A stretch of 54,203 nucleotides of DNA from Nitrospirota bacterium (lineage in GTDB: Bacteria; Nitrospirota; Thermodesulfovibrionia; Thermodesulfovibrionales; JdFR-88), in assembly GCA_021813405.1 (NCBI GenBank), contig JAKAKS010000002.1:1-54203 (forward strand), read 5' to 3'. Positions within the stretch are counted from its first letter, which is position 1. Every line of letters starts with the position of its first letter. Position numbers and translations under genes: made by a program. The notes beneath the pieces are model-generated. The model worked only from the letters and a program-made list of their open reading frames with translations, was not told where the DNA came from and searched no databases. Of this stretch, positions 7,265 through 23,045 are shown in pieces.

Positions 7265-7516
7265 CTATTTTTTCTGGATATAGAGTTCCCAGTAGCCTTT
7301 GTCTTCGAGCTTCACAGATTCAAAGCCAAAGCCCTGCTTTTCGGCCCACCTGGGGATAGTGTCTTCAGCCGAGGCCGGGGCATCGCACAGCACTTTGAGG
7401 ACGGACCCGCTGCCAAGCTTCTCGATGGCCTTTTTCGTGAGCACCAGCGGATAAGGGCAAACCCTGCCCAGCGTATCCAGTGTCTCAGTGGGAGCCTGGT
7501 TGCTAAGATTACCCAT
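7265..7516 (-). CDS. TusA-family sulfur carrier protein
   Basis: An 83-residue member of the TusA (SirA) family, small proteins that carry sulfane sulfur as a persulfide on a conserved Cys. Here the motif is CPYP with Cys20 (VCPYPLVLTKKAIEKLGSG), then the usual beta-strand 'LKVLCDAPASAEDIP'-like middle and a C-terminal strand. The N-terminus is about ten residues longer than E. coli TusA. It starts at ATG 7516 after AAGGAGG and is the last gene of a four-gene operon with three DsrE/F/H-like proteins, a set that normally passes sulfur between partners for thiol modification or dissimilatory sulfur metabolism. Confidence 0.9.
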   Translation of the reverse strand: MGNLSNQAPTETLDTLGRVCPYPLVLTKKAIEKLGSGSVLKVLCDAPASAEDTIPRWAEKQGFGFESVKLEDKGYWELYIQKK

Positions 7517-7533
7517 CAGAAAATCCTCCTTTC

Positions 7534-7944
7534 TTAGAAGAACAGAACGTGTTTTGCTTCGTCCATCTTTTTTGCAATCTCTGAAAACGGGACCACATTT
7601 ATGGTTTTTTCGGCACCCATCTCTTCTGCGTCGGGCAACTGGTCCACGGATATGCCGAATTTATCCAGATCTTCCTTGCAAACGTACACATCCAAGTCTA
7701 CCAGAAGACAGTTCTTCAGGTGGGATTCCGAAGATGTGATACCGTAAATGTCCATCGCCTTTTGGCCCTTCGTGATGCCCAGCACGCCCTCTCCTATAAA
7801 GCAGAGGGACGGGGTGACGGTGTCGCCGTCTTCCAGGAGTATCTCTACTGTCTGGTATGCTAGGGCATGGGTCATGGCGAGCCTTGACGTCTCACCCTTG
7901 TACTGGGGCTTTTGAACTATAAAAGCGCATTTGACGTCGCCCAT
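7534..7944 (-). CDS. DsrE/DsrF-like sulfur-relay protein (TusC-like)
   Basis: A 136-residue protein with the DsrE fold pattern: an N-terminal hydrophobic strand (CAFIVQKPQYKGETSRLAMTHALAYQ), a loop GDTVTPSLCFIGEGVLG, and VDLDVYVCKEDLDKFGI, where the Cys sits at the position used for sulfur transfer in DsrF/DsrE relatives. It lies between the TusA-like gene and a second DsrE-like gene and abuts the latter directly (stop at 7945, start at 7944), so coupling is likely. Exact subunit naming within the DsrEFH hexamer is tentative; the longer length and Cys position suggest DsrF/TusC. Confidence 0.8.
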   Translation of the reverse strand: MGDVKCAFIVQKPQYKGETSRLAMTHALAYQTVEILLEDGDTVTPSLCFIGEGVLGITKGQKAMDIYGITSSESHLKNCLLVDLDVYVCKEDLDKFGISVDQLPDAEEMGAEKTINVVPFSEIAKKMDEAKHVLFF

Positions 7945-8304
7945 CTACTCACCTCCTATCAGGAGCACCCGGTCGGCCGAGTGGATCCTGGCCAGATACC
8001 AGTGCATTGCATTCCATTGTATCTTTTCTATGCTTTCGGTTTTCTGCACACCTCTGGCCACTGTGCAGGCCTCGCACGTGCATACCTCTACGCCGGCAGC
8101 CAGCAGTTCGGTAAGATATTTTTCGCCAGTGGAATAATCTTTCAAGTGCTTCTGGTGGGCCTTTACGGACCCGGTTGCGTTGCCTGAAAACCACATGCTT
8201 ACTTTATGGCCTTTTTTGGCCGCCGCCCCAGCGAATTTTATCGCGAAGTCGTAGGAGGCGGAGCCGACCAGGCCAGGATAAACTCCCATAGTGATTGCGC
8301 CCAT
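7945..8304 (-). CDS. DsrE-like sulfurtransferase (TusD-like) with CxCxxC
   Basis: A 119-residue DsrE-fold protein. The first strand and loop read MGVYPGLVGSASYDFAIKFA, and the probable active site is GVEVCTCEACTVARGV (about 71-86), where three Cys replace the single catalytic Cys followed by RG seen in DsrE and TusD. In those families this Cys carries the persulfide. An AGGAGGC Shine-Dalgarno precedes ATG 8304. In gene order it follows the DsrH-like gene by 13 nt. The Cys cluster is unusual and could allow disulfide chemistry or metal binding in addition to sulfur transfer. Confidence 0.8.
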   Translation of the reverse strand: MGAITMGVYPGLVGSASYDFAIKFAGAAAKKGHKVSMWFSGNATGSVKAHQKHLKDYSTGEKYLTELLAAGVEVCTCEACTVARGVQKTESIEKIQWNAMHWYLARIHSADRVLLIGGE

Positions 8305-8317
8305 TTCCGGTGCCTCC

Positions 8318-8614
8318 TTATAGCCAGGCTATTTTTTCGAATTCGTTGAAAACAACGTCCACAAGGCCGTCGTAATTGACCACCTTAACCCTGCCGTCCA
8401 CCTGGGCCGGCAACATTCCCCTGGTCTCGATGTCCTCAGAGAGGGCGTAGACCTTGGAAAACCTGTCGAGCAGGCTTGAGGCCTTGCCCGATTCCTTCAA
8501 TAATGCATGCCATACGCCGTTCAGCACCAGAATGACCCCGGTTTTGCCCGGATCCAGCCTTTCCAGCGTATCGGAAGAAAGTTTGTAATCGCTGACGAAT
8601 ACGCCTAAGCTCAC
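8318..8614 (-). CDS. DsrH-like sulfur-relay protein (TusB-like)
   Basis: A 98-residue protein of the DsrH/TusB type. It has the compact alpha/beta core (TGVILVLNGVWHALL), the segment KVYALSEDIETRGM and the family's C-terminal VKVVNYDGLVDVVFNEFEKIAWL, shown here in part. DsrH proteins are the structural partner of DsrE and DsrF. No Cys is present, as in many DsrH relatives outside Allochromatium. GTG 8614 is preferred over GTG 8620 because the latter overlaps the AAAGGAGG Shine-Dalgarno. First gene of the minus-strand sulfur operon, behind the promoter at 8656-8685. Confidence 0.75.
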   Translation of the reverse strand: MSLGVFVSDYKLSSDTLERLDPGKTGVILVLNGVWHALLKESGKASSLLDRFSKVYALSEDIETRGMLPAQVDGRVKVVNYDGLVDVVFNEFEKIAWL

Positions 8615-8655
8615 TTGCACCTCCTTTAACGGGATTTTTTTATATGAAGCATAAA

Positions 8656-9076: not shown

Positions 9077-9188
9077 AAAAAATAAAGCCCGTGGATGCAC
9101 GGGCTTTGGCGGCCCCTCAGGGCAGAACCACCTTCGAGACGGTTGCCTCTTACTAGGATTGAAGAACAACCGCCGCTCAAGTACAATT
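9077..9188 (-). ncRNA. tracrRNA of the type II-C CRISPR system
   Basis: Predicted as an RNA of about 110 nt on the minus strand. Its 5' part (9187-9152) is an anti-repeat that aligns with all 36 nt of the CRISPR repeat, with six differences, all transitions. In the crRNA duplex five become G-U pairs and one an A-C mismatch. Next comes a stem-loop (GGCAACC with GGTTCTGCC, one bulge), a C/G-rich single-stranded section and a terminator hairpin with a perfect 10-bp stem (AAAGCCCGTG/CACGGGCTTT, 9084-9107) and six T. RNase III would cut the crRNA-tracrRNA duplex for Cas9 loading. No transcript data were used. Confidence 0.88.
9159..9187 (+). promoter_or_regulatory. cas9 promoter inside the anti-repeat
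   Basis: Read on the plus strand the anti-repeat keeps the promoter-like layout of the CRISPR repeat: TTGAAG (9159-9164), 17 nt, TACAAT (9182-9187). Transcription from about 9194 would give cas9 a leader of about 45 nt with GGGAGG before ATG 9239. Confidence 0.55.
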
Positions 9189-9194
9189 AGGAAG

Positions 9195-9224
9195 TTTTTA
9201 CCATAGGTAAAATCTATTTGTCAA
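9195..9224 (-). promoter_or_regulatory. tracrRNA promoter
   Basis: A consensus TTGACA (9224-9219, minus) stands 18 nt before TAAAAA (9200-9195), placing the start at about 9188, right at the first anti-repeat base. The -35 box lies just upstream of the cas9 Shine-Dalgarno (GGGAGG, 9225-9230) on the opposite strand. Confidence 0.7.
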
Positions 9225-9238
9225 GGGAGGATGGATAA

Positions 9239-12200
9239 ATGGAAAACACAATACTGGGGCTTGACCTTGGCTCAAATTCGATTGGGTGGGCCTTGTTTGA
9301 AGCCAAAGAGCAAAGGCCGGTCCGGCTGATCGATTGCGGGGTGAGGGTTTTTGAGGAAGGGTTGGAAGGCATTGAAGCGGACGGCAAGGGTAAATCCCGA
9401 AACGTTGCCCGCAGAGAGGCCCGCCTTAGGAGGAGACAGTGCGACCGCAAGGCAAGAAGACTGGCGCACCTTGCGCGTCTTCTCCAGCGTTCCGGACTGC
9501 TGCCCTCAGGTAAGCTTAACACGCCTGAAGAAAGGCACGAATTTTTTACGCAACTCGATAAGACCCTTTTGCCTCCTTTGCAATTGAGGGCTGAGGCCCT
9601 GGCCAGAAAGCTTGAAGCTAATGAGCTTGGCCGGGCTTTTTACCATTTGGGGCAAAGAAGAGGGTTCCTCAGCAACCGCAAATCTGCACCTAAAAAAGAT
9701 GAGGACAAGGGAGTAATAAAACAGGAAATCGCCGGTCTCGAAAAAGAAATTAAAGAGGCCGGGGCGCAAACACTGGGTGAGCATTTTAATAAACTTAATT
9801 CCGAAGGAGTGCGTGTAAGGGTAAGACATACGGCCAGAAAGATGTACGAGGATGAGTTCGGGCATATATGGGAGGCCCAAAGGCTCTACTATCCCGATAT
9901 TCTTACAGATGAATTGAAGAAAAAAATGTACAAGGCGATTTATTTCCAGCGGCCGCTTAAAAGCCAAAAGGAGTTGATAGGTCTTTGCGAACTGGAAGAA
10001 GGCAAAAAGCGCGCGCCCTGGGCGCTGCTTGCCGCCCAGCGTTTCAGATATTTGCAAAAAGTAAATGACTTGCGGGTAAACAGTGGTGGTGATGAACGCC
10101 CGCTTACCAAGGAGGAACGAAATTCGCTTATTCAAGCCCTGGAAAATATCGGCGACATGACTTTTGCCGGCAGGGGCTTAAATATAAAAAAGCTGCTTAA
10201 TCTCAAGAGCGTGGAGTTTAACCTGGAGCGCGGAGGAGAAAAAAAGTTGCCCGGCAACCGCACTGCAAAGGCGCTCAGGGATATTTTTAAAGATAGGTGG
10301 GACGGATTCACCGTGGAGGAAAAAAACGCCGTAGTGGATGAGATAAGGAGCACGGTAAAGGACGATATCCTGAAAAAACGGGGAGTGAAAGCCTGGGGCC
10401 TGGACGAAGAAGCGGCGCAGGATTTTGCGGAAATCAGCCTTGAGGACGGTTACTGCAATTACTCGAAGCTGGCAATCGGAAAACTGATGCCGCTTCTGGA
10501 AAAGGGGATGCCGCTTGCGTCAGCGATAAAGGAAATGTATCAGAACAGACGCGATAAAACAATTAACCCTCTGAGAGAACTGCCACCGGTAAGACAAGGG
10601 CTGGCGGAGATCAGAAATCCCCTTGTGGAGCGTGCCCTAACCGAATTGAGGCGCGTCGTGAATGCGGTGGTGGACAAACACGGCCAACCTGGCGTAATGC
10701 GCATAGAACTGGCGCGCGATCTCAAACGCCCCGCCAAAGAACGGGAGCAGGCATGGAAGAACATGCGCGCAAATGAAAAGAAAAGAGAAGAAGCTGCGCG
10801 TAAAATACTTGCCGAACCCGGCAACGGCAATCCCAGCCGGAATGACATTCTGAAAGTGCTTTTGTGGGAAGAATGCAACGGTAAATGTCCATATACCGGC
10901 AGGCCCATAAGCATGACCGCGCTGCTTGGCGATAACCCGCAATTCGATATTGAGCATATAATCCCGTTCGACCGCTCTTTGGACGATTCCTATGTAAACA
11001 AGACATTGTGCTACGCGGAAGAAAATAGAGAAGTAAAGAAAGGGAGGACGCCTTTCGAGGCGTATGGCGAAAGACCCGAGTGGTCCCAGATTTTGGAAAG
11101 GGTCAAAAACTTCAAAGGAGATGCGGCAAGGGAAAAGTACAGGCGGTTCAATCTGACCGAGGCGGAGCTTGAAGAGATACTGAAGGACTTTTCATCCAGG
11201 CAGCTTAACGACACCCGGTATGCCACCCGGTTAGCGAAGGGTTATCTTGGCCTTTTATATGGCGGCCTTGATGATGACGGGATAGACGCTGAGGGCAAAC
11301 GAAGGGTGCAGGCGGCAACGGGCCAGGTGACCGCGCATATCAGGAACGCGCTTGATCTGAACAGGATACTGAACGACGGCCCGCGAAAATCCAGGGATGA
11401 CCACCGCCACCACGCCGTTGACGCAGTGGCCATCGCCCTTGCGGATACCGCAATGATTAAACAGCTTTCTGATGCCGCAAAAAACAGGAAGGGCAGAAGG
11501 CTGTTTGCGCCTGTCCGGAAGCCGTGGGAAAACTTTTTCGAGGATGTGCGCAAGGACATATTAGGCATTACGGTTTCCAAGCGCGTATCAAACCGGGTGC
11601 GCGGCGCTCTTCATAAAGAGACTTTTTATTCGCCGCCCAAAACGGATGATAAGGGCAAAAAATACGTCCTTGTCCGTACAGGGCTGGCGGATTTAAGCAA
11701 AAAAGATATTGAAACTGGGTTGGACTATTTGGATGAGCGTGTCCGGGACTGCATCCTTGAAAAGCTTAATGGCGGCGAGGCCAAAAAAGTATTTGCGCAT
11801 CCTGAAGACCATCCAGTTATAAAAACAAAGGACGGCAGAGAGATACCCATCCACAAGATAAGGATCAGACAATCGCAGGACGTGTTCGCAGTTGGCAAAG
11901 GAGATAGCGCGCGCTATGTGCAGGCCGATTCCATTCACCATATGGAGATCATTAGGACAAAGGACAAAAACGGGAACGAGAAGTGGGAAGGTTTTGTTGT
12001 GGACATGTTGGAAGCTTACAGGCGCTTGCATGCAAAGGAGCCGGAACCAGTGATTAAGCGCGACCATGGAGAAAACAAGGAGTTCGTCTTTTCGCTTGCG
12101 GGCGGGGAGATCATAGAACTGGATGAATTGGATAAGACGGGAAGAGGTCTTTATGTAGTGCGGACCGTGCCAAAAAGCAGACAGATTTATTTTACCCCGC

Positions 12201-12331
12201 TGGCGGATGCCCGGATATTAAAGGATATAGGTAAGAAGGGGCTTACTGCTTACCCTGAGACTTTGAAGGAGCGGCACTGTAGAAAGGTTGTGGTTACCCC
12301 GCTTGGAGAAGTCCGCCGGGCCAATGACTGA
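9239..12331 (+). CDS. cas9: CRISPR-associated endonuclease Cas9 (type II-C)
   Basis: RNA-guided DNA endonuclease of 1030 residues, a compact size typical of subtype II-C. RuvC-I is ILGLDLGSNSIGW with Asp9, followed by an Arg-rich bridge helix (about 54-85, RNVARREARLRRRQ). RuvC-II carries MRIELARDLK with Glu490. The HNH domain includes a CNGKCPYTG zinc-like knuckle, DIEHIIPF with His573 and ENRE with Asn596, 23 residues on, the same spacing as in Neisseria Cas9. RuvC-III has DDHRHHAVDA with His725 and Asp728. All catalytic residues are present, so the nuclease should be active. The C-terminal 280 residues are the WED/PAM-interacting part and cannot be read for PAM. GGGAGG precedes ATG 9239; cas1 overlaps its end by 8 nt. 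Confidence 0.97.
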   Translation: MENTILGLDLGSNSIGWALFEAKEQRPVRLIDCGVRVFEEGLEGIEADGKGKSRNVARREARLRRRQCDRKARRLAHLARLLQRSGLLPSGKLNTPEERHEFFTQLDKTLLPPLQLRAEALARKLEANELGRAFYHLGQRRGFLSNRKSAPKKDEDKGVIKQEIAGLEKEIKEAGAQTLGEHFNKLNSEGVRVRVRHTARKMYEDEFGHIWEAQRLYYPDILTDELKKKMYKAIYFQRPLKSQKELIGLCELEEGKKRAPWALLAAQRFRYLQKVNDLRVNSGGDERPLTKEERNSLIQALENIGDMTFAGRGLNIKKLLNLKSVEFNLERGGEKKLPGNRTAKALRDIFKDRWDGFTVEEKNAVVDEIRSTVKDDILKKRGVKAWGLDEEAAQDFAEISLEDGYCNYSKLAIGKLMPLLEKGMPLASAIKEMYQNRRDKTINPLRELPPVRQGLAEIRNPLVERALTELRRVVNAVVDKHGQPGVMRIELARDLKRPAKEREQAWKNMRANEKKREEAARKILAEPGNGNPSRNDILKVLLWEECNGKCPYTGRPISMTALLGDNPQFDIEHIIPFDRSLDDSYVNKTLCYAEENREVKKGRTPFEAYGERPEWSQILERVKNFKGDAAREKYRRFNLTEAELEEILKDFSSRQLNDTRYATRLAKGYLGLLYGGLDDDGIDAEGKRRVQAATGQVTAHIRNALDLNRILNDGPRKSRDDHRHHAVDAVAIALADTAMIKQLSDAAKNRKGRRLFAPVRKPWENFFEDVRKDILGITVSKRVSNRVRGALHKETFYSPPKTDDKGKKYVLVRTGLADLSKKDIETGLDYLDERVRDCILEKLNGGEAKKVFAHPEDHPVIKTKDGREIPIHKIRIRQSQDVFAVGKGDSARYVQADSIHHMEIIRTKDKNGNEKWEGFVVDMLEAYRRLHAKEPEPVIKRDHGENKEFVFSLAGGEIIELDELDKTGRGLYVVRTVPKSRQIYFTPLADARILKDIGKKGLTAYPETLKERHCRKVVVTPLGEVRRAND

Positions 12332-13211
12332 GCGCATCATAGATATTTCCGAAGGCCCGGCAAAGCTTAGTGTCAGGCACGCCCAGCTCCAGATCGAAAA
12401 GGATGGCGAGCTGATGGGCGCCGCGCCTCTTGAGGAAGTTGCCGCGCTTCTGGTTTCACATCCTGCCGTCACTTACACCAATGCCGTTTTGAGCGGACTT
12501 TGCCAGCATGGCGGCTTATTCGTGCTCTGCGGAGAAAAACACCTTCCAGCCGGTATGTTAATGCCCTTTGAAAGCCATTTCGTCCAGTCGGAACGTTTTT
12601 CCACGCAGGCGCGGGCCTCGTTGCCGGTTAAGAAACAGCTATGGAGGCAGATAATCCGCGCCAAAGTGCGGGCGCAGGGAAATCTTCTTCTTGAAGAGCG
12701 CGGGAAAGACAACGGGTTGCTTATGCTTGCGGACAGGGTTGGCTCCGGCGACTGCACGAACATTGAGGCGCAGGCGGCCCGCCGGTACTGGAGCGCGTTG
12801 TTCGGGGAGGATTTCATTCGGGACCGTAATGAGCCTGGGCCTAACATATTCCTTAATTACGGCTATACAGTGTTAAGGGCTGCTGCTGCGAGGGCCATAT
12901 GCGCGGCGGGGCTTCATCCCGCTTTGGGCCTCCACCATCACAACCGGTATAGCGGATTCTGTCTTGCTGATGACTTGATGGAGCCTTACCGCCCGGCTGT
13001 GGATGCTATTGTTTTGGCTTCAGGCCAAAAAAGCGGCGGTGATTGCATTCTGGGAAAAGAGTCCAAGGCGTTTATCATCAAGACTCTAATGGACAAGAGG
13101 TTTGAAATAGGCGGGGAAAGCAGGGGATTATTCGATTCTCTTGCCCGTACGGCGGCTTCATTGGCGTCCGTTTTTTCGGGCAAGAGAAAGACGCTTCTTT
13201 TGCCAGTATAA
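12324..13211 (+). CDS. cas1: CRISPR integrase Cas1
   Basis: A 295-residue integrase that, with Cas2, inserts new spacers at the array. The start MTERIIDISEGPAKLSVRH is chosen because ATG 12324 overlaps the cas9 stop as ATGACTGA and matches the N-terminus of type II Cas1; the frame opened at 12288 would add 12 unrelated residues. The active-site set is present: Glu148 in NIEAQAARRYW, the His cluster 204-206 in GLHHHNRYSGF, and Asp216/Asp217 in CLADDLMEPYRP. Length fits type II Cas1 (about 290-305). Confidence 0.97.
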   Translation: MTERIIDISEGPAKLSVRHAQLQIEKDGELMGAAPLEEVAALLVSHPAVTYTNAVLSGLCQHGGLFVLCGEKHLPAGMLMPFESHFVQSERFSTQARASLPVKKQLWRQIIRAKVRAQGNLLLEERGKDNGLLMLADRVGSGDCTNIEAQAARRYWSALFGEDFIRDRNEPGPNIFLNYGYTVLRAAAARAICAAGLHPALGLHHHNRYSGFCLADDLMEPYRPAVDAIVLASGQKSGGDCILGKESKAFIIKTLMDKRFEIGGESRGLFDSLARTAASLASVFSGKRKTLLLPV

Positions 13212-13215
13212 ACAC

Positions 13216-13554
13216 ATGCAAAGGCTGGAATTTTCGGAGTATCGCTCTATGTGGCTATTTGCGATGTTCGATCTTCCGGTGGACACACAGGAAGCCCGCC
13301 ACCTCTATACCAAATTCCGGACTTTTCTTTTAAAAGAAGGTTTCACCATGATGCAGTTTTCAGTCTATGCCCGCTATTGCGCAAGCGAAGAACGGAGCGA
13401 AGCTTTCAGGCGGAGGCTGAAAAAGGCCCTTCCTCCCAAAGGCGAGGTCCGTCTGATGGCTGTAACCGATCATCAGTTCGGGAAAATGGAGATTTACAGG
13501 GGGAAAAACCTGTGTTCAACCGAAAAACCTCCAGATCAGGTAATGCTTTTTTAA
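13216..13554 (+). CDS. cas2: CRISPR adaptation protein Cas2
   Basis: A 112-residue ferredoxin-fold protein that dimerises between two Cas1 dimers during spacer integration. It opens MQRLEFSEYRSMWLFAMFDLPV, shown here in part; the conserved Asp19 in MFDLPV follows the first strand, and FLLKEGFTMMQFSVYAR is the typical second helix-strand unit. ATG 13216 is 4 nt after the cas1 stop; the longer frame from 13141 lies inside cas1. There is no csn2 or cas4 gene, which together with the Cas9 size defines subtype II-C. Confidence 0.95.
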   Translation: MQRLEFSEYRSMWLFAMFDLPVDTQEARHLYTKFRTFLLKEGFTMMQFSVYARYCASEERSEAFRRRLKKALPPKGEVRLMAVTDHQFGKMEIYRGKNLCSTEKPPDQVMLF

Positions 13555-13570
13555 GCTGCAGGAAAGGCGG

Positions 13571-13603
13571 AAGCCCTTGTAAATCATGGACTTACAAGGG
13601 CTT
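13571..13603. terminator. Perfect 12-bp hairpin between cas2 and the array
   Basis: AAGCCCTTGTAA (13571-13582) and TTACAAGGGCTT (13592-13603) form a perfect stem with a 9-nt loop. No T-run follows on either strand, so it is not a textbook intrinsic terminator, but it lies where plus-strand cas mRNA and minus-strand crRNA transcription meet and could separate them. Confidence 0.45.
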
Positions 13604-13604
13604 C

Positions 13605-15550
13605 ATTGTACTTGAGCGGCGATTGTTTTCCAACCCCAGCCATGCCAGCAAAGACCGTTCAGGGCATCTTATTGTACTTGAGCGGCGATTGTTTTCCAAC
13701 CCCAGCCTGTCCGATGTCTTTGCAACTGCCGTCCACATTGTACTTGAGCGGCGATTGTTTTCCAACCCCAGCGATTTTTGCGCTCGTAATCTTCCGTGAT
13801 GGATTGTACTTGAGCGGCGATTGTTTTCCAACCCCAGCTGGTAATCAATATAATATCCCTCCTGCTTTATTGTACTTGAGCGGCGATTGTTTTCCAACCC
13901 CAGCAAAATGTGTTGGCTGTCGAACTCCCTGCCATTGTACTTGAGCGGCGATTGTTTTCCAACCCCAGCTCTATGTTGTAAGTGCCGTCCCATACCTGGA
14001 TTGTACTTGAGCGGCGATTGTTTTCCAACCCCAGCCGTTGGCATCGTTTGGTGACAATGTGAGTTATTGTACTTGAGCGGCGATTGTTTTCCAACCCCAG
14101 CTACTGGCCTGTGCAATGAGGTATAAGCACCATTGTACTTGAGCGGCGATTGTTTTCCAACCCCAGCAGCCTGTCGCCGGAATTCGGTATTACACCCATT
14201 GTACTTGAGCGGCGATTGTTTTCCAACCCCAGCATCTGATTTCTTGCCCATTATTCGCGGACCATTGTACTTGAGCGGCGATTGTTTTCCAACCCCAGCT
14301 AATAACCCAAAACGTGTGCGCCCGCTGCGATTGTACTTGAGCGGCGATTGTTTTCCAACCCCAGCCATAATCTCGGTCCTGAACGGCTCGCCACTATTGT
14401 ACTTGAGCGGCGATTGTTTTCCAACCCCAGCCTTGGGTTTTTTCTACCTGGGCATTCTGTATTGTACTTGAGCGGCGATTGTTTTCCAACCCCAGCGCGT
14501 AAAGTAATACTAATCCCTTGTCCTTGATTGTACTTGAGCGGCGATTGTTTTCCAACCCCAGCCTTAAATGTAACGGGGTATGCCGCAGGCGCATTGTACT
14601 TGAGCGGCGATTGTTTTCCAACCCCAGCTTAAGTCACAATAAGAATCTTACGTGAACAATTGTACTTGAGCGGCGATTGTTTTCCAACCCCAGCCTGGCC
14701 TTCGACGGGTTTTCTTCCATCGTTATTGTACTTGAGCGGCGATTGTTTTCCAACCCCAGCCAGACGCTAACACTTGCCTGACATCTTTAAATTGTACTTG
14801 AGCGGCGATTGTTTTCCAACCCCAGCGATACACGGGATACTATCGCGACTACTACATTGTACTTGAGCGGCGATTGTTTTCCAACCCCAGCCCGGTAGGA
14901 CAGACATCTTCGTATAATTTTATTGTACTTGAGCGGCGATTGTTTTCCAACCCCAGCCGTTTAATGTCGCTCTTCCAAACCAAATCGATTGTACTTGAGC
15001 GGCGATTGTTTTCCAACCCCAGCAAGCCATCCAGCAAAGCCACCAAGATGCAAATTGTACTTGAGCGGCGATTGTTTTCCAACCCCAGCTGTGTACTCGT
15101 AATGGTTTGAAAAGGGAATATTGTACTTGAGCGGCGATTGTTTTCCAACCCCAGCTGTGTACTCGTAATGGTTTGAAAAGGGAATATTGTACTTGAGCGG
15201 CGATTGTTTTCCAACCCCAGCCCAGGCGCAGGTATGTATCTGTGTTTTCCGATTGTACTTGAGCGGCGATTGTTTTCCAACCCCAGCACAGCTTCGGGAA
15301 TAAATAATACGTTGACTATTGTACTTGAGCGGCGATTGTTTTCCAACCCCAGCACGAAGCAGAAGACACAGACAAAATGGGCTATTGTACTTGAGCGGCG
15401 ATTGTTTTCCAACCCCAGCTTCATCTGCTCAATATCACCGCGCGTTACCATTGTACTTGAGCGGCGATTGTTTTCCAACCCCAGCGGAATCTACAAAAGA
15501 AACTGCTTAAATGCATTGTACTTGAGCGGCGATTGTTTTCCAACCCCAGC
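13605..15550 (-). CRISPR. Type II-C CRISPR array, 30 repeats and 29 spacers
   Basis: Thirty repeats of 36 nt (plus strand ATTGTACTTGAGCGGCGATT...CCCCAGC), none showing a change. There are 29 spacers: 25 of 30 nt and four of 29 nt (before the repeats at 13934, 14461, 14856 and 15515). Strand is set by the tracrRNA: the anti-repeat pairs with the minus-strand repeat, which starts GCTGGGG and ends TACAAT, so crRNAs are read right to left. Spacers at 15090-15119 and 15156-15185 are identical, a 66-bp tandem duplication. Both end repeats are intact, so no decayed trailer end can be picked. The leader side is probably the AT-rich 15551-15700. Confidence 0.99.
15515..15543 (-). promoter_or_regulatory. 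Intra-repeat crRNA promoter (one of 30 identical copies)
   Basis: In crRNA direction each repeat is 7 nt + TTGGAA + 17 nt + TACAAT, the hexamers being 4/6 and 5/6 matches to sigma-70 consensus at ideal spacing. The -10 box is the last six bases of the repeat, so RNA would start about 6-8 nt into the next spacer and leave a guide of about 23 nt. The coordinates given are those of the rightmost repeat. Confidence 0.65.
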
Positions 15551-15568
15551 CGGGTTTGCCTTGGGGGC

Positions 15569-15587
15569 ATGGGGGCGGAGCCCCCAT
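15569..15587. other. GC-rich hairpin beside the array
   Basis: ATGGGGGC (15569-15576) and GCCCCCAT (15580-15587) enclose GGA and are followed by an AT-rich stretch. It lies 18 nt outside the rightmost repeat, on the presumed leader side. It may block read-through into or out of the array. Confidence 0.5.
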
Positions 15588-16243: not shown

Positions 16244-16440
16244 GTTGTATTCGATGGGTTGGTATCCTCAAATAGGGAATATCATCTTCAAAAGAGGATT
16301 GTTTTTGGTGCTTCCTGAGCTTTGTATTTTTTGCTATTTTACAAAAAACATTATAAAACAGATTGTTATGCGATCATTAAATCATAGGCACGCATTTTGA
16401 TTGTATGTGTCCATCATAGTAATGAAAGGAGGTGATTGAA

Positions 16441-16749
16441 TTGAAGAAGGCACTTATGATGCTCGTTGCAGCACTCTTTATGTTCTCTGCTGTTGGTATG
16501 AGCTACGCGGCTGGTGTAAGCAACGCAACCGCTCCTACTCACAAGATGGCTAAGAAGAAAGTAGCCAAGAAGAGGGTAGTAAGGAAGAAAAAGGCTGCCA
16601 AGAAGAGGGTAGTAAGGAAGAAAAAGGCTGCTAAGAAGAGGGTAGTAAGGAAGAAAAAGGCTGCCAAGAAGAAGGTTGTAAGGAAGAAAAAGGCCGCCAA
16701 GAAGGCTGCCAAGAAGAAAGAGGCTGCTCCCGCTCCGGCGGCGAAGTAA
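16441..16749 (+). CDS. Exported histone-H1-like Lys/Arg repeat protein
   Basis: A 102-residue protein with a signal peptide (about residues 1-24, MKKALMMLVAALFMFSAVG then AGVSNA) followed by almost nothing but Lys, Arg, Val and Ala. An 11-residue unit of the type AKKRVVRKKKA is repeated four times, then KKAAKKK and APAPAAK. The tail resembles bacterial histone-H1-like DNA-binding proteins, but those are cytoplasmic, whereas this one has an export signal. TTG 16441 lies eight bases after AAAGGAGGTGAT. The start region of the mature protein (TAPTHKMAKKKV) matches that of the preceding gene (SAPVHKVSKKTV). Possible roles: cross-linking acidic polysaccharide, lipopolysaccharide or extracellular DNA. 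Confidence 0.75.
   Translation: MKKALMMLVAALFMFSAVGMSYAAGVSNATAPTHKMAKKKVAKKRVVRKKKAAKKRVVRKKKAAKKRVVRKKKAAKKKVVRKKKAAKKAAKKKEAAPAPAAK
16564..16695 (+). repeat. Four tandem 33-bp coding repeats
   Basis: Units start at 16564, 16597, 16630 and 16663. The first two are identical, the third differs by one base, the fourth by a few. They encode the basic 11-residue unit and look recently amplified, so copy number may vary between strains. Confidence 0.9.
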
Positions 16750-18404: not shown

Positions 18405-18869
18405 ATGAAAAGGTCAATGGTAGTAATAGTATTAACAGTATGCATGGTATTGGTGGCTGGGGCGGCATTTGCGGCCAGCTCTAACAGCAGTGTGACCGTT
18501 TCCGGAACGGTGCAGGGCGTTTGCCAGTTTGATCCCACAAGCGGCACGGCGCTGAGTTTCGGCAGCATTACACCTAATGTTGCGGCCACTGCAACCAATA
18601 ATGTTATCGTAGAGTGCACCAACGGTTGGGCGTACTCCCTGGCGGTTAATACCGGCCTCAATTCCGCCAACTGCGCCGGGTCCGCTTGCATGAAGAACGG
18701 CGCCAATTACATGAACTACTCAGCTTCATTGGCCAGCGCCAGCGGCACGGGTACAGGTTTTGGAAGCCCCATTACGGATGTCCTGACCGGCACAGTGAGC
18801 GCAACCAACTCCCAGAATGCGGCGGTTGGTTCTTACAATGACACCCTTACAGTAACGCTAACCTACTAA
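18405..18869 (+). CDS. Major fimbrial subunit, SCPU (spore coat U) domain
   Basis: A 154-residue secreted subunit of an archaic (sigma-clade) chaperone-usher fimbria. A signal peptide ending AAFA is followed by an Ig-like SCPU fold: N-terminal donor-strand-like SNSSVTVSGTVQGVC, two Cys pairs (VCQFD ... VECTNG and NCAGSACMKNG), and the C-terminal YNDTLTVTLTY typical of the family. AAGGAGG precedes ATG 18405. First gene after the sigma-54 promoter; a hairpin directly downstream (18884-18907) probably makes it the most abundant product, as expected for the shaft subunit. Confidence 0.88.
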   Translation: MKRSMVVIVLTVCMVLVAGAAFAASSNSSVTVSGTVQGVCQFDPTSGTALSFGSITPNVAATATNNVIVECTNGWAYSLAVNTGLNSANCAGSACMKNGANYMNYSASLASASGTGTGFGSPITDVLTGTVSATNSQNAAVGSYNDTLTVTLTY

Positions 18870-18883
18870 ATTTATAAAAACGG

Positions 18884-18907
18884 ACGAGGGGGAGTTTTCC
18901 CCCTCGT
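18884..18907 (+). terminator. Attenuating hairpin after the major pilin gene
   Basis: ACGAGGGGGA-GTTT-TCCCCCTCGT, a perfect 10-bp stem followed by only a short T-rich tail. Partial termination or mRNA protection here would raise the ratio of major pilin to downstream usher and chaperone. Confidence 0.65.
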
Positions 18908-18926
18908 TCAATTTAAGGGTGATCCA

Positions 18927-19421
18927 ATGCTGTACAGGGGACACAGGCTTTCATATATAAAACGTATTGCTTTGGCCCTTTGTTTTTTTCTTGCAGCGGG
19001 CACGGGGCGGGCACTGGCAGGCACAAAAACATCTTCCGTTGCGGTAAGTGCGTCAGTTCCATCCGGCCTATGCCAGTTCATCACCACAACGGCCGCCCTG
19101 AACTTTGGCAACCTTAACCCGGCAAACCCGGTGAACGTAAACGCCACCGCCTCGCTAACCTTTCTCTGCTTTGGACGGCCGGTGTCCTACGCGGTAACCC
19201 ATGATGGCGGGCTGCACAACTCCGGCGGCCAGAACCGGATGATTAATGCGGACCTGGTGCATTACCTACCATATTCGGTTTCATTGAACCCCACTACCGG
19301 CACTGCTAACTTTTTTACTTTCCAGACGGTTACGGTAACCGGGACTGTAGCGGGCCTGGACTATCAAAACGCACAGTCCGGCAATTATTCCGATACGCTT
19401 ACCGTAACTGTTACGCCTTAG
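18927..19421 (+). CDS. Second SCPU-domain fimbrial subunit
   Basis: A 164-residue protein related to the preceding pilin. It has a signal peptide (about residues 1-32, ending GRALA), SSVAVSASVPSGLCQFITT as the N-terminal strand, TFLCFGRPVSYAV with the partner Cys, and a C-terminal YSDTLTVTVTP. Only the single Cys pair is kept. AAGGGTGAT lies before ATG 18927. Being downstream of an attenuating hairpin it is probably a minor subunit. Confidence 0.85.
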   Translation: MLYRGHRLSYIKRIALALCFFLAAGTGRALAGTKTSSVAVSASVPSGLCQFITTTAALNFGNLNPANPVNVNATASLTFLCFGRPVSYAVTHDGGLHNSGGQNRMINADLVHYLPYSVSLNPTTGTANFFTFQTVTVTGTVAGLDYQNAQSGNYSDTLTVTVTP

Positions 19422-19448
19422 GGTCGTTTTTTTTGTATAATACTCGCA

Positions 19449-20237
19449 ATGTTGCTAAACGGTTTTAAAATGAAACCAGCCGCAAGGCGTGTTTTGTTTT
19501 GCCTGGCGGCTATGGCCTATTTCCTGGTATTTCTGGCCCCAGCTGCTTTAGCTGGAAACTTTTACGTCTTCCCTACGCGGCTGGATTTTGGCCCTCAGGC
19601 CAGTACAGGGGCAATTACCGTATCCAACAAGGTTAACGAGCCGCTCAATATACAGGTGGGGGCGGTCAAGTGGACCGAGGACGCAAGCGGCAAGGACGTT
19701 TACTCCGATACAAAGGACGTTATATTCTTCCCTAAAGTTGCATCCCTTAATGGAAACGAGCAGCGGCTTGTGAGGGCCGGCGTGCAACTGCCGCCATCAG
19801 CCATCGAGAGGACTTACCGGCTGTTCATTGGTGAGATACCGCAGCCCAAAAAGCCCGGCCAAACCCAAATCTCGGTGGCGATAAGGTTCGGTATCCCCGT
19901 ATTTGTTGCTCCGGCTAAGGAAAACCCGGCAGGGGCCATCGGCAGCCTTGAAATCTCCAAAGGCAATCTGAACATCCTTGCAAAAAATACAGGCAACGTC
20001 CACTTCATCCTGAAAACCCTGCAGGTAAGAGGCACGGACCCGAAGGGCCATGTGAAATTCTCCAAGGACATTCCCGGCTGGTACCTGCTGGCTGGCGCTT
20101 CCCGGCTTTATACCACGCCCATCACCAAGGTCCAATGCCTTGGGTTGTCCAGGATCGAGGTGAAGGCGGTTACGGACAGGCCGGACCTCAACTTCTCCGG
20201 ATCTCTGGAAATGAAAAAAGAGATGTGCGGTGCGTAA
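19449..20237 (+). CDS. Periplasmic fimbrial chaperone (PapD-like, archaic type)
   Basis: A 262-residue periplasmic chaperone that donates a strand to fold pilin subunits and hands them to the usher. It has a signal peptide (MKPAARRVLFCLAAMAYF onward, ending ALAGN), then the N-terminal Ig domain beginning FYVFPTRLDFGPQASTGAITV, and the G1-strand region TYRLFIGEIP, followed by the second domain VAIRFGIPVFVAP. A TATAAT box (19436-19441) sits 7 nt before ATG 19449 without Shine-Dalgarno, so there may be an extra leaderless transcript in addition to operon read-through; ATG 19470 is an alternative start. Confidence 0.9.
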   Translation: MLLNGFKMKPAARRVLFCLAAMAYFLVFLAPAALAGNFYVFPTRLDFGPQASTGAITVSNKVNEPLNIQVGAVKWTEDASGKDVYSDTKDVIFFPKVASLNGNEQRLVRAGVQLPPSAIERTYRLFIGEIPQPKKPGQTQISVAIRFGIPVFVAPAKENPAGAIGSLEISKGNLNILAKNTGNVHFILKTLQVRGTDPKGHVKFSKDIPGWYLLAGASRLYTTPITKVQCLGLSRIEVKAVTDRPDLNFSGSLEMKKEMCGA

Positions 20238-22594
20238 GGCCTAAATCCAGCCGGCTTGCCGCGCCGGTGCTGTTTGTGCTTCTGGCCGCGGCATTGCTCC
20301 CCTGCATAGCTTCCGCTGCCTCACAGAGGCTCATCGTCTATATAAGCCTGAACCAGGAGCCCAAAGGCGAGTTCTTTGTAATCATGTCCGGCGGAGGGGA
20401 TTTCCTGGTGAGGCAGGCCGACCTCAAATCCATGGGCCTGCAACACATAACAGGCGCAGTAACGCAGCAGGGCAATGAAAAATATGTCTCCCTGAAATCC
20501 ATTAAAGGGGTAAAATTCCATTTCGATGAAAACACGCTTACCCTGGAGTTAACGGCCACCCCTTCGTTATTGCCGGAGCATGAGAAGAACTTTACCCCCG
20601 CCAGGCACACCAAAGTAGTGTACCCAGTAAACAACAGCGTTTTCCTTAATTACGCGCTGGACTACAATTCCGGAAGCAATTTCAGGTCCACGGGCATCAC
20701 CCTTGGCAATGAGCTTGGGGCAAGGCTAAGCAATTTCCTGCTGCTTAGCAGCAGCACTTACAGCCGTGCTCCTTCGGCAGACAGTTTCACAAGGCTGCAA
20801 AGCAGCCTTATCCACGACAACCGGGAAACCCTCCAGCGGTTTACGGCCGGAGATTTCTTTGCCGCATCAGGCGAGCTTGGAAGTGCGCTTAACATGGGGG
20901 GGCTGTCCTTTGCAAAGGTGTACCAGATAAACCCCTATCTTATAAAACAGCCCATGCTCGATGTAACAACGGACCTGCTTACCCGTTCTGACGTTGAGGT
21001 TTACATAGACGGCGTGCTGGTAGGCAAGCAGTCCTTTGCGCCCGGCCTTGCGGACCTCAGAGACATAAACTACGCGGGCGGCCTGCACCAGGTGGACATA
21101 TTGATAAAAGACGCCTTTGGCAGGGAAAGATGGATTCATTACCCGTTCTACTTTACGGACACGCTGCTTCGGAAAGGGTTCCATGAATACAGCTACAACG
21201 TAGGATACCTGCGGGACAAATACGGCAGTGAAAGCAACAGTTACGGCAGCCCCGTCTTCACCGCATACCACAATTACGGCGTAACCGGCGGGTTTACCGC
21301 CGGGGCCAGGGCCGAGGCGGGCAGGGGGGTGTACAACATCGGCGGGCAGGGGACATACAGGATTGGCCCGTATGGCACGGTATTTCTTGCGGCCTCCGCC
21401 AGCATATGCAACGGAGCTTCCGGCGCGGCCGGTTCCTTCAGGTATGATTTCCAGAAACGCAACCTGAATGGGGGGCTTAGCCTTCAGGCCTTCAGCCCGG
21501 GTTACGAGATTATTTCATATACCCTTTCCCCGGACCTTGCCAGGCCGGAGTACACCGCCTCTGCCGCTGCAGGCTACGGGACGCCAAAGCTGGGTAATCT
21601 GTCAGCGGTTTACAGCATATCGGACCAGTACGGCGGCAGCCGTATCCGCATACTCACCGCTTCGTTTCAACGGAACATTACCAGCAAGGTAAACCTAACC
21701 GCTACTTACAAAAACACGGCTGGCCAGCCAAATGAAAGCGAAATAGTTTTCAACCTTACATACTATTTCGGGAAAACCTCGAATGTTTCGGCCATCCTGG
21801 ACCTGGGCAGGCACACGGGTTCCGAGGGGCTCCAGGTGCAGAAAAACCTGCCGCTTGGCGAGGGGTATGGCTACAGGGCCGTCCTGGAGCGCGACAGCGC
21901 CGGGGGCGTTAACAGCTACCAGGTGGACCCATCGGTGCAGGTTAACCTGCCTGGAATTGCGCTAAGCGGGGAGTATTCCGGCAGCTTCAGCGGAAGTTCG
22001 GGCACCGGCTCCCTTGACCTGCGCGCGGCCGGCGCCATTGCATACGTTGGGGATTCTTTCGGGTTTGCGCGCCCCATAAGCGACAGCTTCGGGCTTGTTA
22101 AGGTTGGCAATATAAACGGGGTTGAGGTAAGCGTGAACAACCAGTACCTTGGCAAAACCAATAAAAATGGCGAGGTGTTTGTGCCAACCCTGTCTTCCTA
22201 TACCGATAACGAGGTATCCATCAGCCAGAAGGACATCCCGCTTAACTACACACTTTCCGCGTCAAGCGAGTACGTGTCTCCGGCTTTAAGGGCCGGGGCG
22301 CTTATCAATTTTGAGGCAAAGCGGTTCACGGCGGTAAGCGGCTATCTGAAAATAAAATATAACGGGCAGGTGCAGCCGGTGGAATACCGTGAGGTCACTA
22401 TGCAGGTGAATAAAAAGGCGGTCTCGTTCCCCACGGGCAAGGGCGGGGAGTTTTACCTGGAGGACATTCAGCCCGGCCGGTACAGCGCTTCCTTCGAATA
22501 TTTGAAAAAGCGGTGCGTCTTTGAGATAATAGTGCCGGTATCGAAGGAGCTGATAAATGATCTTGGCAACGTGGTCTGCGAAGACATTCACTAG
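20225..22594 (+). CDS. Outer-membrane fimbrial usher
   Basis: A usher of about 789 residues (FimD/PapC superfamily, archaic clade) that forms the outer-membrane pore and orders subunit assembly. GTG 20225 is preferred, giving a signal peptide (SSRLAAPVLFVLLAAALLPC) and a 13-nt overlap with the chaperone gene; the frame opened at ATG 20135 would add 30 residues from inside that gene. After an N-terminal domain (about 40-130) comes a long beta-barrel with alternating strands (VFLNYALDYNSG, RFTAGDFFAASGELGSAL), a plug-like Ig segment around VEVYIDGVLVGKQSF, and a C-terminal domain starting near GYLKIKYNGQVQPVEYREV. It ends within the next gene by 38 nt. Confidence 0.93.
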   Translation: MRCVRPKSSRLAAPVLFVLLAAALLPCIASAASQRLIVYISLNQEPKGEFFVIMSGGGDFLVRQADLKSMGLQHITGAVTQQGNEKYVSLKSIKGVKFHFDENTLTLELTATPSLLPEHEKNFTPARHTKVVYPVNNSVFLNYALDYNSGSNFRSTGITLGNELGARLSNFLLLSSSTYSRAPSADSFTRLQSSLIHDNRETLQRFTAGDFFAASGELGSALNMGGLSFAKVYQINPYLIKQPMLDVTTDLLTRSDVEVYIDGVLVGKQSFAPGLADLRDINYAGGLHQVDILIKDAFGRERWIHYPFYFTDTLLRKGFHEYSYNVGYLRDKYGSESNSYGSPVFTAYHNYGVTGGFTAGARAEAGRGVYNIGGQGTYRIGPYGTVFLAASASICNGASGAAGSFRYDFQKRNLNGGLSLQAFSPGYEIISYTLSPDLARPEYTASAAAGYGTPKLGNLSAVYSISDQYGGSRIRILTASFQRNITSKVNLTATYKNTAGQPNESEIVFNLTYYFGKTSNVSAILDLGRHTGSEGLQVQKNLPLGEGYGYRAVLERDSAGGVNSYQVDPSVQVNLPGIALSGEYSGSFSGSSGTGSLDLRAAGAIAYVGDSFGFARPISDSFGLVKVGNINGVEVSVNNQYLGKTNKNGEVFVPTLSSYTDNEVSISQKDIPLNYTLSASSEYVSPALRAGALINFEAKRFTAVSGYLKIKYNGQVQPVEYREVTMQVNKKAVSFPTGKGGEFYLEDIQPGRYSASFEYLKKRCVFEIIVPVSKELINDLGNVVCEDIH

Positions 22595-23045
22595 GTTGTT
22601 GGCTGCCACGCTTATTGTGCTGGCGGTTTCCGGGTACGCCTTTGCCGCCCGTTGCACTGTTTCGGCAACCGGCATCAATTTCGGCAGTTACAATATCCTG
22701 TCCGCCGCCCCAACCGATTCCACGGGCCAGGTAAACGTGTCTTGCAACGGCAACGTGACTTCGGCAGCCATCTCGATAAGCGCCAGCCCCACTTCGGGCA
22801 GTTTCTGGCCCAGAGACATGAGGAGCAGCCTTTCTCCTTCCTTTATGATGGCTTATAATCTTTATACGGACTCCACCAGGAGCACCGTATGGGGCGACGG
22901 TACGCTTGGCACCCAAACGGTGGTAATCCAGCCGGTAACCAGGAAGGCCGTTTACACCGAAACTATTTACGCCAGGATACCCGCCAGGCAGGACGTTTAT
23001 TACGGGCCGTATTCCGATACGCTTACTGTAACTGTAAACTGGTAA
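22557..23045 (+). CDS. SCPU-domain fimbrial tip or adhesin subunit
   Basis: A 162-residue secreted SCPU protein: signal peptide ending GYAFA, then ARCTVSATGINFGSYNILS, VNVSCNGNVTS, and C-terminal YGPYSDTLTVTVNW, the family hallmark. It begins right after Arg-Cys without the extra donor strand seen in the first subunit, which is what would be expected for a tip subunit. It overlaps the usher by 38 nt and closes the fimbrial operon. Confidence 0.85.
   Translation: MILATWSAKTFTRLLAATLIVLAVSGYAFAARCTVSATGINFGSYNILSAAPTDSTGQVNVSCNGNVTSAAISISASPTSGSFWPRDMRSSLSPSFMMAYNLYTDSTRSTVWGDGTLGTQTVVIQPVTRKAVYTETIYARIPARQDVYYGPYSDTLTVTVNW

Follow-up and report, generated by a model that had tools for sequence, protein, structure and literature searches.

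Whether every repeat of a CRISPR array can carry its own promoter is the question raised by an array in a 54,203-nt stretch of DNA from a Nitrospirota bacterium; the whole stretch is referred to here as the window. A sequence-only reading of this DNA had described 30 identical repeats, each composed, in crRNA orientation, of 7 nt, TTGGAA, 17 nt and TACAAT. An exact search confirms the description: GCTGGGGTTGGAAAACAATCGCCGCTCAAGTACAAT has 30 perfect copies on the minus strand between 13605 and 15550, all with exactly this layout (7+6+17+6 = 36), and no further copy elsewhere in the 2.9-Mb genome (up to three mismatches over the first 23 nt). The same reading had taken the identity of the repeats as an argument for working promoters. 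The identity holds for 30 of 30 copies, but is usual in any array; it was therefore dropped as support for promoter function, and the 30 copies are counted as one observation rather than 30. The spacers are 30 nt (n = 25) or 29 nt (n = 4) long. One of them is present twice, at neighbouring positions (15090-15119 and 15156-15185), and the relative G065 (L023) likewise has an adjacent duplicated spacer.

Organization of the locus and its relatives

The locus encodes Cas9, a type II Cas1 and Cas2 (Table 1). Among proteins of solved structure, its Cas9 is most similar in sequence to Cas9 proteins of 1082-1095 aa. Neither Csn2 nor Cas4 was found among the flanking ORFs that were tested, none of which matches a cas family; the locus is therefore assigned to type II-C. 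The tracrRNA with an anti-repeat pairing to the repeat, which belongs to such a system, is present as well. Directly upstream of the locus, on the minus strand, lie sulfur-relay genes (7265-8620, with matches to TusB/DsrH and TusC/DsrF). On the other side, a short ORF (16432-16749) combines a signal-like start with a tandem Lys/Arg-rich repeat of the type KRVVRKKKAA, and the ORFs at 18405-23045 resemble, judged by eye from their translations, a chaperone-usher pilus cluster.

Table 1. Positions of the features of the CRISPR locus in the window.
Feature	Position	Strand	Remarks
tracrRNA, anti-repeat followed by two hairpins	9077..9188	minus	terminator stem 9107-9084, then ATTTTTT; fold z -4.4; conserved in relatives
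tracrRNA anti-repeat	9152..9187	minus	plus strand is a degenerate repeat, ACTAGGATTGAAGAACAACCGCCGCTCAAGTACAAT, just upstream of cas9
Candidate cas9 promoter opposite the anti-repeat	9159..9187	plus	TTGAAG, 17 bp, TACAAT; 51 nt lie between its end and the cas9 ATG (value for the window only)
tracrRNA promoter	9195..9224	minus	TTGACA 9224-9219, 18 bp, TAAAAA 9200-9195; predicted start at the first anti-repeat base
cas9	9239..12331	plus	1030 aa; RuvC and HNH motifs; TIGR01865 (E 1.7e-213); matches Cas9 entries in PDB
cas1	12291..13211	plus	TIGR03639, type II Cas1
cas2	13216..13554	plus	TIGR01573
Leader palindrome, GAAGCCCTTGTAA..TTACAAGGGCTTC	13570..13604		abuts the cas2-side repeat; taken to mark the acquisition end
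CRISPR array	13605..15550	minus	30 identical 36-nt repeats, 29 spacers; crRNA strand minus, read towards cas2
Repeat furthest upstream in transcription (representative)	15515..15550	minus	-35-like TTGGAA 15543-15538, 17 bp, -10 TACAAT 15520-15515; same layout in 30 of 30 repeats

A scan of genome contigs gave one relative, and the comparison was therefore widened to whole genomes of the class and the phylum as well as ten plasmid loci. Three of the latter have a detectable array, and a fourth (Pasteurella) has three scattered repeats. Searching 230 genomes of the class for Cas9 yielded ten further loci, 11 with the window. These form clade A (the window, G068, G063, G142, G065 and G077) and clade B (five loci of another family). 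The family-level relative Nitrospirae bacterium DBS2-1.bin159 (L009) is the same contig as G068.

The tracrRNA and the strand of the crRNA

The tracrRNA, which the sequence-only reading did not contain, provides an orientation of the array that makes no use of TACAAT. Its pairing with the repeat on the crRNA strand amounts to -57.0 kcal/mol, compared to -20.0 kcal/mol for the other strand and -28.7 kcal/mol for the best of 200 shuffled repeats. The crRNA strand is therefore the minus strand, and the orientation proposed earlier was right. The pairing spans all 36 nt of the repeat; the plus strand of the anti-repeat differs from the repeat at 6 positions, 5 of which become G-U pairs. The TTGACA of the tracrRNA promoter is found in 10 of the 11 loci (TTGACT in L029), and in those 10 lies 28-31 nt from the -10 of the anti-repeat. 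Rfam returned no tracrRNA, and protospacers for a PAM-based orientation were found neither in phage records nor, for two spacers, in IMG/VR. An exact copy of the first 19 nt of the repeat also lies near the contig start in G077 (L024, 92-110), past the tracrRNA terminator; it is either a leftover piece of a repeat or an artefact of assembly.

The repeat as a probable sigma70-type promoter

Promoters were scored with a sigma70 matrix of E. coli, not of the host. On this scale the best promoter of the window repeat scores 11.7, and its -10 coincides exactly with the final 6 nt of the repeat; none of 2000 dinucleotide shuffles reaches this score. The opposite strand of the repeat is at chance level (p 0.29, same matrix). 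Counted against TTGACA and TAnAAT at 16-18 bp, the window repeat has 9 of 12 consensus matches; its -35 alone is weak (4 of 6). An extended -10 (TGn), typical of the described II-C members with repeat promoters and not strictly required, is absent: the segment AAGTACAAT lacks the TG, in place of which the repeat has a -35. As a reference within the same genome, the best sites upstream of 23 tRNA genes consist of TTGACA and TAnAAT, mostly at 17-18 bp, with a median score of 8.7 versus 4.6 for control stretches. These tRNA promoters are of the same type as the repeat and on average no better, the repeat exceeding 18 of the 23.

The related loci extend this picture. In all 10 distinct repeat types of Nitrospirota, the best -10 coincides with the last six bases of the repeat. 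In crRNA orientation, the repeat of G063, GCTGGGGCTTGACAACAGAATCCGCTCAAGTATAAT, contains the full sigma70 consensus TTGACA-16-TATAAT, and those of G142 (GTTGGGGCTTGACAGGAACTGCGGCTCAAGTACAAT), G065 (GTTGGGGCTTGACAGGAACTGACGCTCAGGTACAAT) and G077 (GCTGGGGCTTGACAACAAAATCCGCTCAAGTACAAT) contain TTGACA-16-TACAAT. The hexamers of these four loci, whose Cas9 proteins are 53-58% identical, occupy repeat positions 9-36 and reach 11-12 of 12 matches. Among 396 genomes of the phylum, tandem TTGACA-16-TAYAAT at array spacing occurs only in these four, and the reversed pattern, used as a control, in none. Tandem consensus promoters in viral contigs amount to one match at 16 bp and 29 at 17 bp, none of them a CRISPR array. 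The five clade B repeats (GTTGTGGGTTGC...GATATGTTATACT or close variants) have an extended -10, TGTTATACT, and TTGC at the -35 position. Repeat promoter scores are 14.3-16.5 in the relatives, 11.7 in the window and 9.2-12.8 in clade B with its TG-extended -10.

In the Cas9 tree, the window and G068 (repeat GCTGGGGTTGGAAAACAGACGCCGCTCAAGTACAAT) are nested within clade A, and TTGACA-16-TACAAT is therefore the ancestral state. The -35 of the window looks like a drifted copy of the ancestral hexamer, TGGAAA at 16 bp, with a C8-to-T change that would have re-created TTG one base upstream at 17 bp. TTGGAA at 17 bp, named as the -35 in the sequence-only reading, is thus exact as a sequence, but the homologous -35 lies one base further in. 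With the window -35 weak by itself, the strong case for a repeat promoter comes from the relatives.

The probable acquisition end and the flanks of the array

Next to the cas2-side repeat, all six clade A loci have a conserved palindrome whose arms have changed in a compensatory way (TTGTAA..TTACAA and TTGCAA..TTGCAA). Its core motif, CCTTGYAAATCANNNNNTTRCAAGG, is present in a single copy in each of these six genomes and in none of the others among the 230. In the window the palindrome probably serves as a leader element when spacers are integrated, or else as a hairpin that transcripts leaving the array encounter. An intrinsic terminator was considered and rejected, since no T-run follows the palindrome on either strand. 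Beyond 15550, at the other end, not even the flanks of the window and G068 are related to each other, and in the relatives L025, L026 and L027 degenerate terminal repeats are found at the end far from cas2. Because the conserved palindrome lies beside cas2, and because the far end shows an unconserved flank and degenerate repeats, new spacers most likely enter at the cas2 end. Transcription thus proceeds towards the acquisition end, as judged by conservation, and an external promoter on the upstream flank would sit at the position furthest from the newest spacer. A GC-rich hairpin, GGGGGCATGGGGGCGGAGCCCCCAT, lies just upstream of the first transcribed repeat (15563-15587); it is unique in the genome (up to three mismatches) and absent from the flank of G068.

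Alternative explanations and proposed mechanism

An array of this kind could also be transcribed from an external promoter upstream of 15550 into one long pre-crRNA that is cut by RNase III with the tracrRNA, the motif in the repeat being incidental or auxiliary. The 36-nt pairing with the anti-repeat would suit such processing, the upstream flanks of L026 and L029 contain an external promoter-like site that outscores the repeat, and the II-C system of R. anatipestifer is said to have no repeat promoters. In the window, however, the best site on the upstream flank is no better than shuffled DNA (p 0.25), no promoter there is conserved, even in G068, and it is the downstream end that carries the conserved leader. 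The full TTGACA-16-TAYAAT in the repeats of the relatives would also be left unexplained, and we regard a single external promoter as unlikely. Still less probable is that the TACAAT end is kept for other reasons, namely for integration by Cas1-Cas2 at the leader-repeat junction or for pairing with the 5' end of the tracrRNA, and that the likeness to a promoter is secondary. It is true that this end points to the leader, the site of integration, and that the anti-repeat pairs with it. Neither role predicts TTGACA at sigma70 spacing, however, and the ACA of TTGACA is kept in the repeats, yet poorly matched by the anti-repeats (TTGAAC in G063, TTGCAC in G142, TTGTCC in G077). Outside the Nitrospirota, the -10 end of the anti-repeat is kept in Pigmentibacter, but changed to AACAAT in Pasteurella, a relative of the Neisseria system, and lost in Limnohabitans and Sphingobium; pairing at this end is hence not essential in the latter three.

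We consider it highly probable that the window contains a type II-C system in which each repeat acts as a sigma70-type promoter with a -35 and a -10, initiating crRNA transcription towards the cas2 end, and that TTGACA-16-TACAAT is its ancestral form. A promoter embedded in the repeat, as the sequence-only reading had suggested, is supported by the orientation of the array, the better promoter at the same repeat positions in relatives, the similar tRNA promoters, the lack of a conserved upstream promoter and spacer acquisition on the downstream side. The activity of this promoter, its start sites and the processing of the transcripts are inferred. By analogy with C. jejuni, RNA polymerase would bind the repeat and start about 6-8 nt into the following spacer. 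The transcript would cover this spacer and the repeat after it, so that the guide is about 23 nt long and its 5' end is primary; its 3' end would be set when the tracrRNA pairs with this second repeat, whether RNase III takes part or not. Starts within the spacers, and with them a dispensable 5' processing, are suggested by Campylobacter and Neisseria. A new spacer, inserted at the cas2 end, would be expressed from the repeat directly upstream, so that no leader promoter would be needed. Downstream acquisition would then offer a testable reason for repeat promoters in II-C systems: a newly stored spacer is expressed immediately and independently of the upstream sequence. A 36-nt repeat would have room for a complete -35/-10 promoter in addition to its roles in tracrRNA pairing and in integration, and the relatives, with 12/12, 11/12 and 9/12 matches, offer a natural series for relating repeat promoter strength to guide abundance.

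The anti-repeat as a possible cas9 promoter

On the strand opposite the anti-repeat, the repeat's own -10 is kept, facing cas9, in 11 of 11 Nitrospirota loci. The resulting candidate promoter is the top-scoring site upstream of cas9 in five of the six clade A loci (the window and four of the five relatives) and the second in the sixth. By its position, the tracrRNA promoter would start the tracrRNA at the first base of the anti-repeat, and the predicted cas9 start accordingly falls at about 9193-9195, at the tracrRNA -10. It is quite conceivable, if a little short of probable, that the degenerate repeat serves both strands, as the tracrRNA anti-repeat on one and as a promoter driving cas9-cas1-cas2 on the other. 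The two promoters (9195-9224 and 9159-9187) would then be interlocked, a polymerase on one covering the other, and transcription of tracrRNA and cas9 would be mutually exclusive. If so, the promoters of the crRNAs and of cas9 would all go back to one ancestral promoter in a repeat, and the overlap could explain the balance between effector and tracrRNA.

The plus strand of the anti-repeat may instead be no cas9 promoter, its -10 being kept for full pairing between tracrRNA and repeat, with cas9 transcribed from elsewhere; we give this nearly an even chance. In favour of this reading, the -10 follows the sequence of the repeat, TATAAT being matched by TATAAT and TATACT by TATACT, which is what pairing would require, and in clade B the -35 is lost on this strand and the site ranks only 2-11 among the upstream sites. 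Against it stand the top rank in five of six clade A loci, the position 51 nt before the ATG in the window and the TTG retained at 16-17 bp; other II-C anti-repeats do without these bases, and pairing by itself does not force their retention. Because covariation of the -10 with the repeat within the group could still come from pairing, dual use is stated here with caution. An anti-repeat that doubles as a cas9 promoter is not reported in the literature searched, which leaves out most subscription papers and is weak evidence of absence.

Comparison with known systems

Repeat promoters were reportedly described by Zhang in 2013 for the type II-C system of Neisseria meningitidis. The Neisseria repeat has 36 nt and ends in TACAAT, with an extended -10, TGCTACAAT, and no -35. 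In N. meningitidis, transcription is reported to start from every repeat and guides to have about 24 nt (PMC7038990, PMC5006608, PMC10281378); the window shares the 36-nt repeat ending in TACAAT and the proposed per-repeat transcription, and differs in having a -35 without TG instead of the extended -10. In C. jejuni, transcript starts were mapped at spacer position 5, with the -10 at the end of the repeat (Dugar 2013, PMC3656092). This minimal II-C system also resembles the window in its cas9-cas1-cas2 order, its tracrRNA and a -10 at the 3' end of every repeat, but has an extended -10, GGTAAAAT, without a -35, whereas both hexamers are present in the window (PMC3656092). The plan of Neisseria and Campylobacter with a different repeat, as the locus had been described from its sequence, hence applies to the -10 at the repeat end, but not to the promoter type.

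For the II-C systems of Clostridium cellulolyticum and Flavobacterium, repeat promoters have been proposed whose direction is opposite to the cas genes or points to the variable end (PMC7038990, PMC8092290, PMC10309648); these are of other types than in the window (extended -10; TTG at -33). Arrays of type II-C are read towards the variable end (Hoikkala et al., PMC8092290). In Riemerella anatipestifer, as is likely for the window, new spacers enter beside cas2, and C. jejuni is reported to be similar (PMC6008519). Unlike what is proposed for the window, the R. anatipestifer II-C system is reported to be without promoters in its repeats (PMC5006608), and II-C membership alone therefore does not imply repeat promoters. 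A full -35/-10 promoter within a CRISPR repeat is not reported in the literature searched, with most subscription papers outside this search and the evidence of absence correspondingly weak. Repeat promoters in type II-C systems have been known since 2013 and proposed in several genera; the locus described here represents a variant with a full -35/-10, which would extend the plan to the Nitrospirota.
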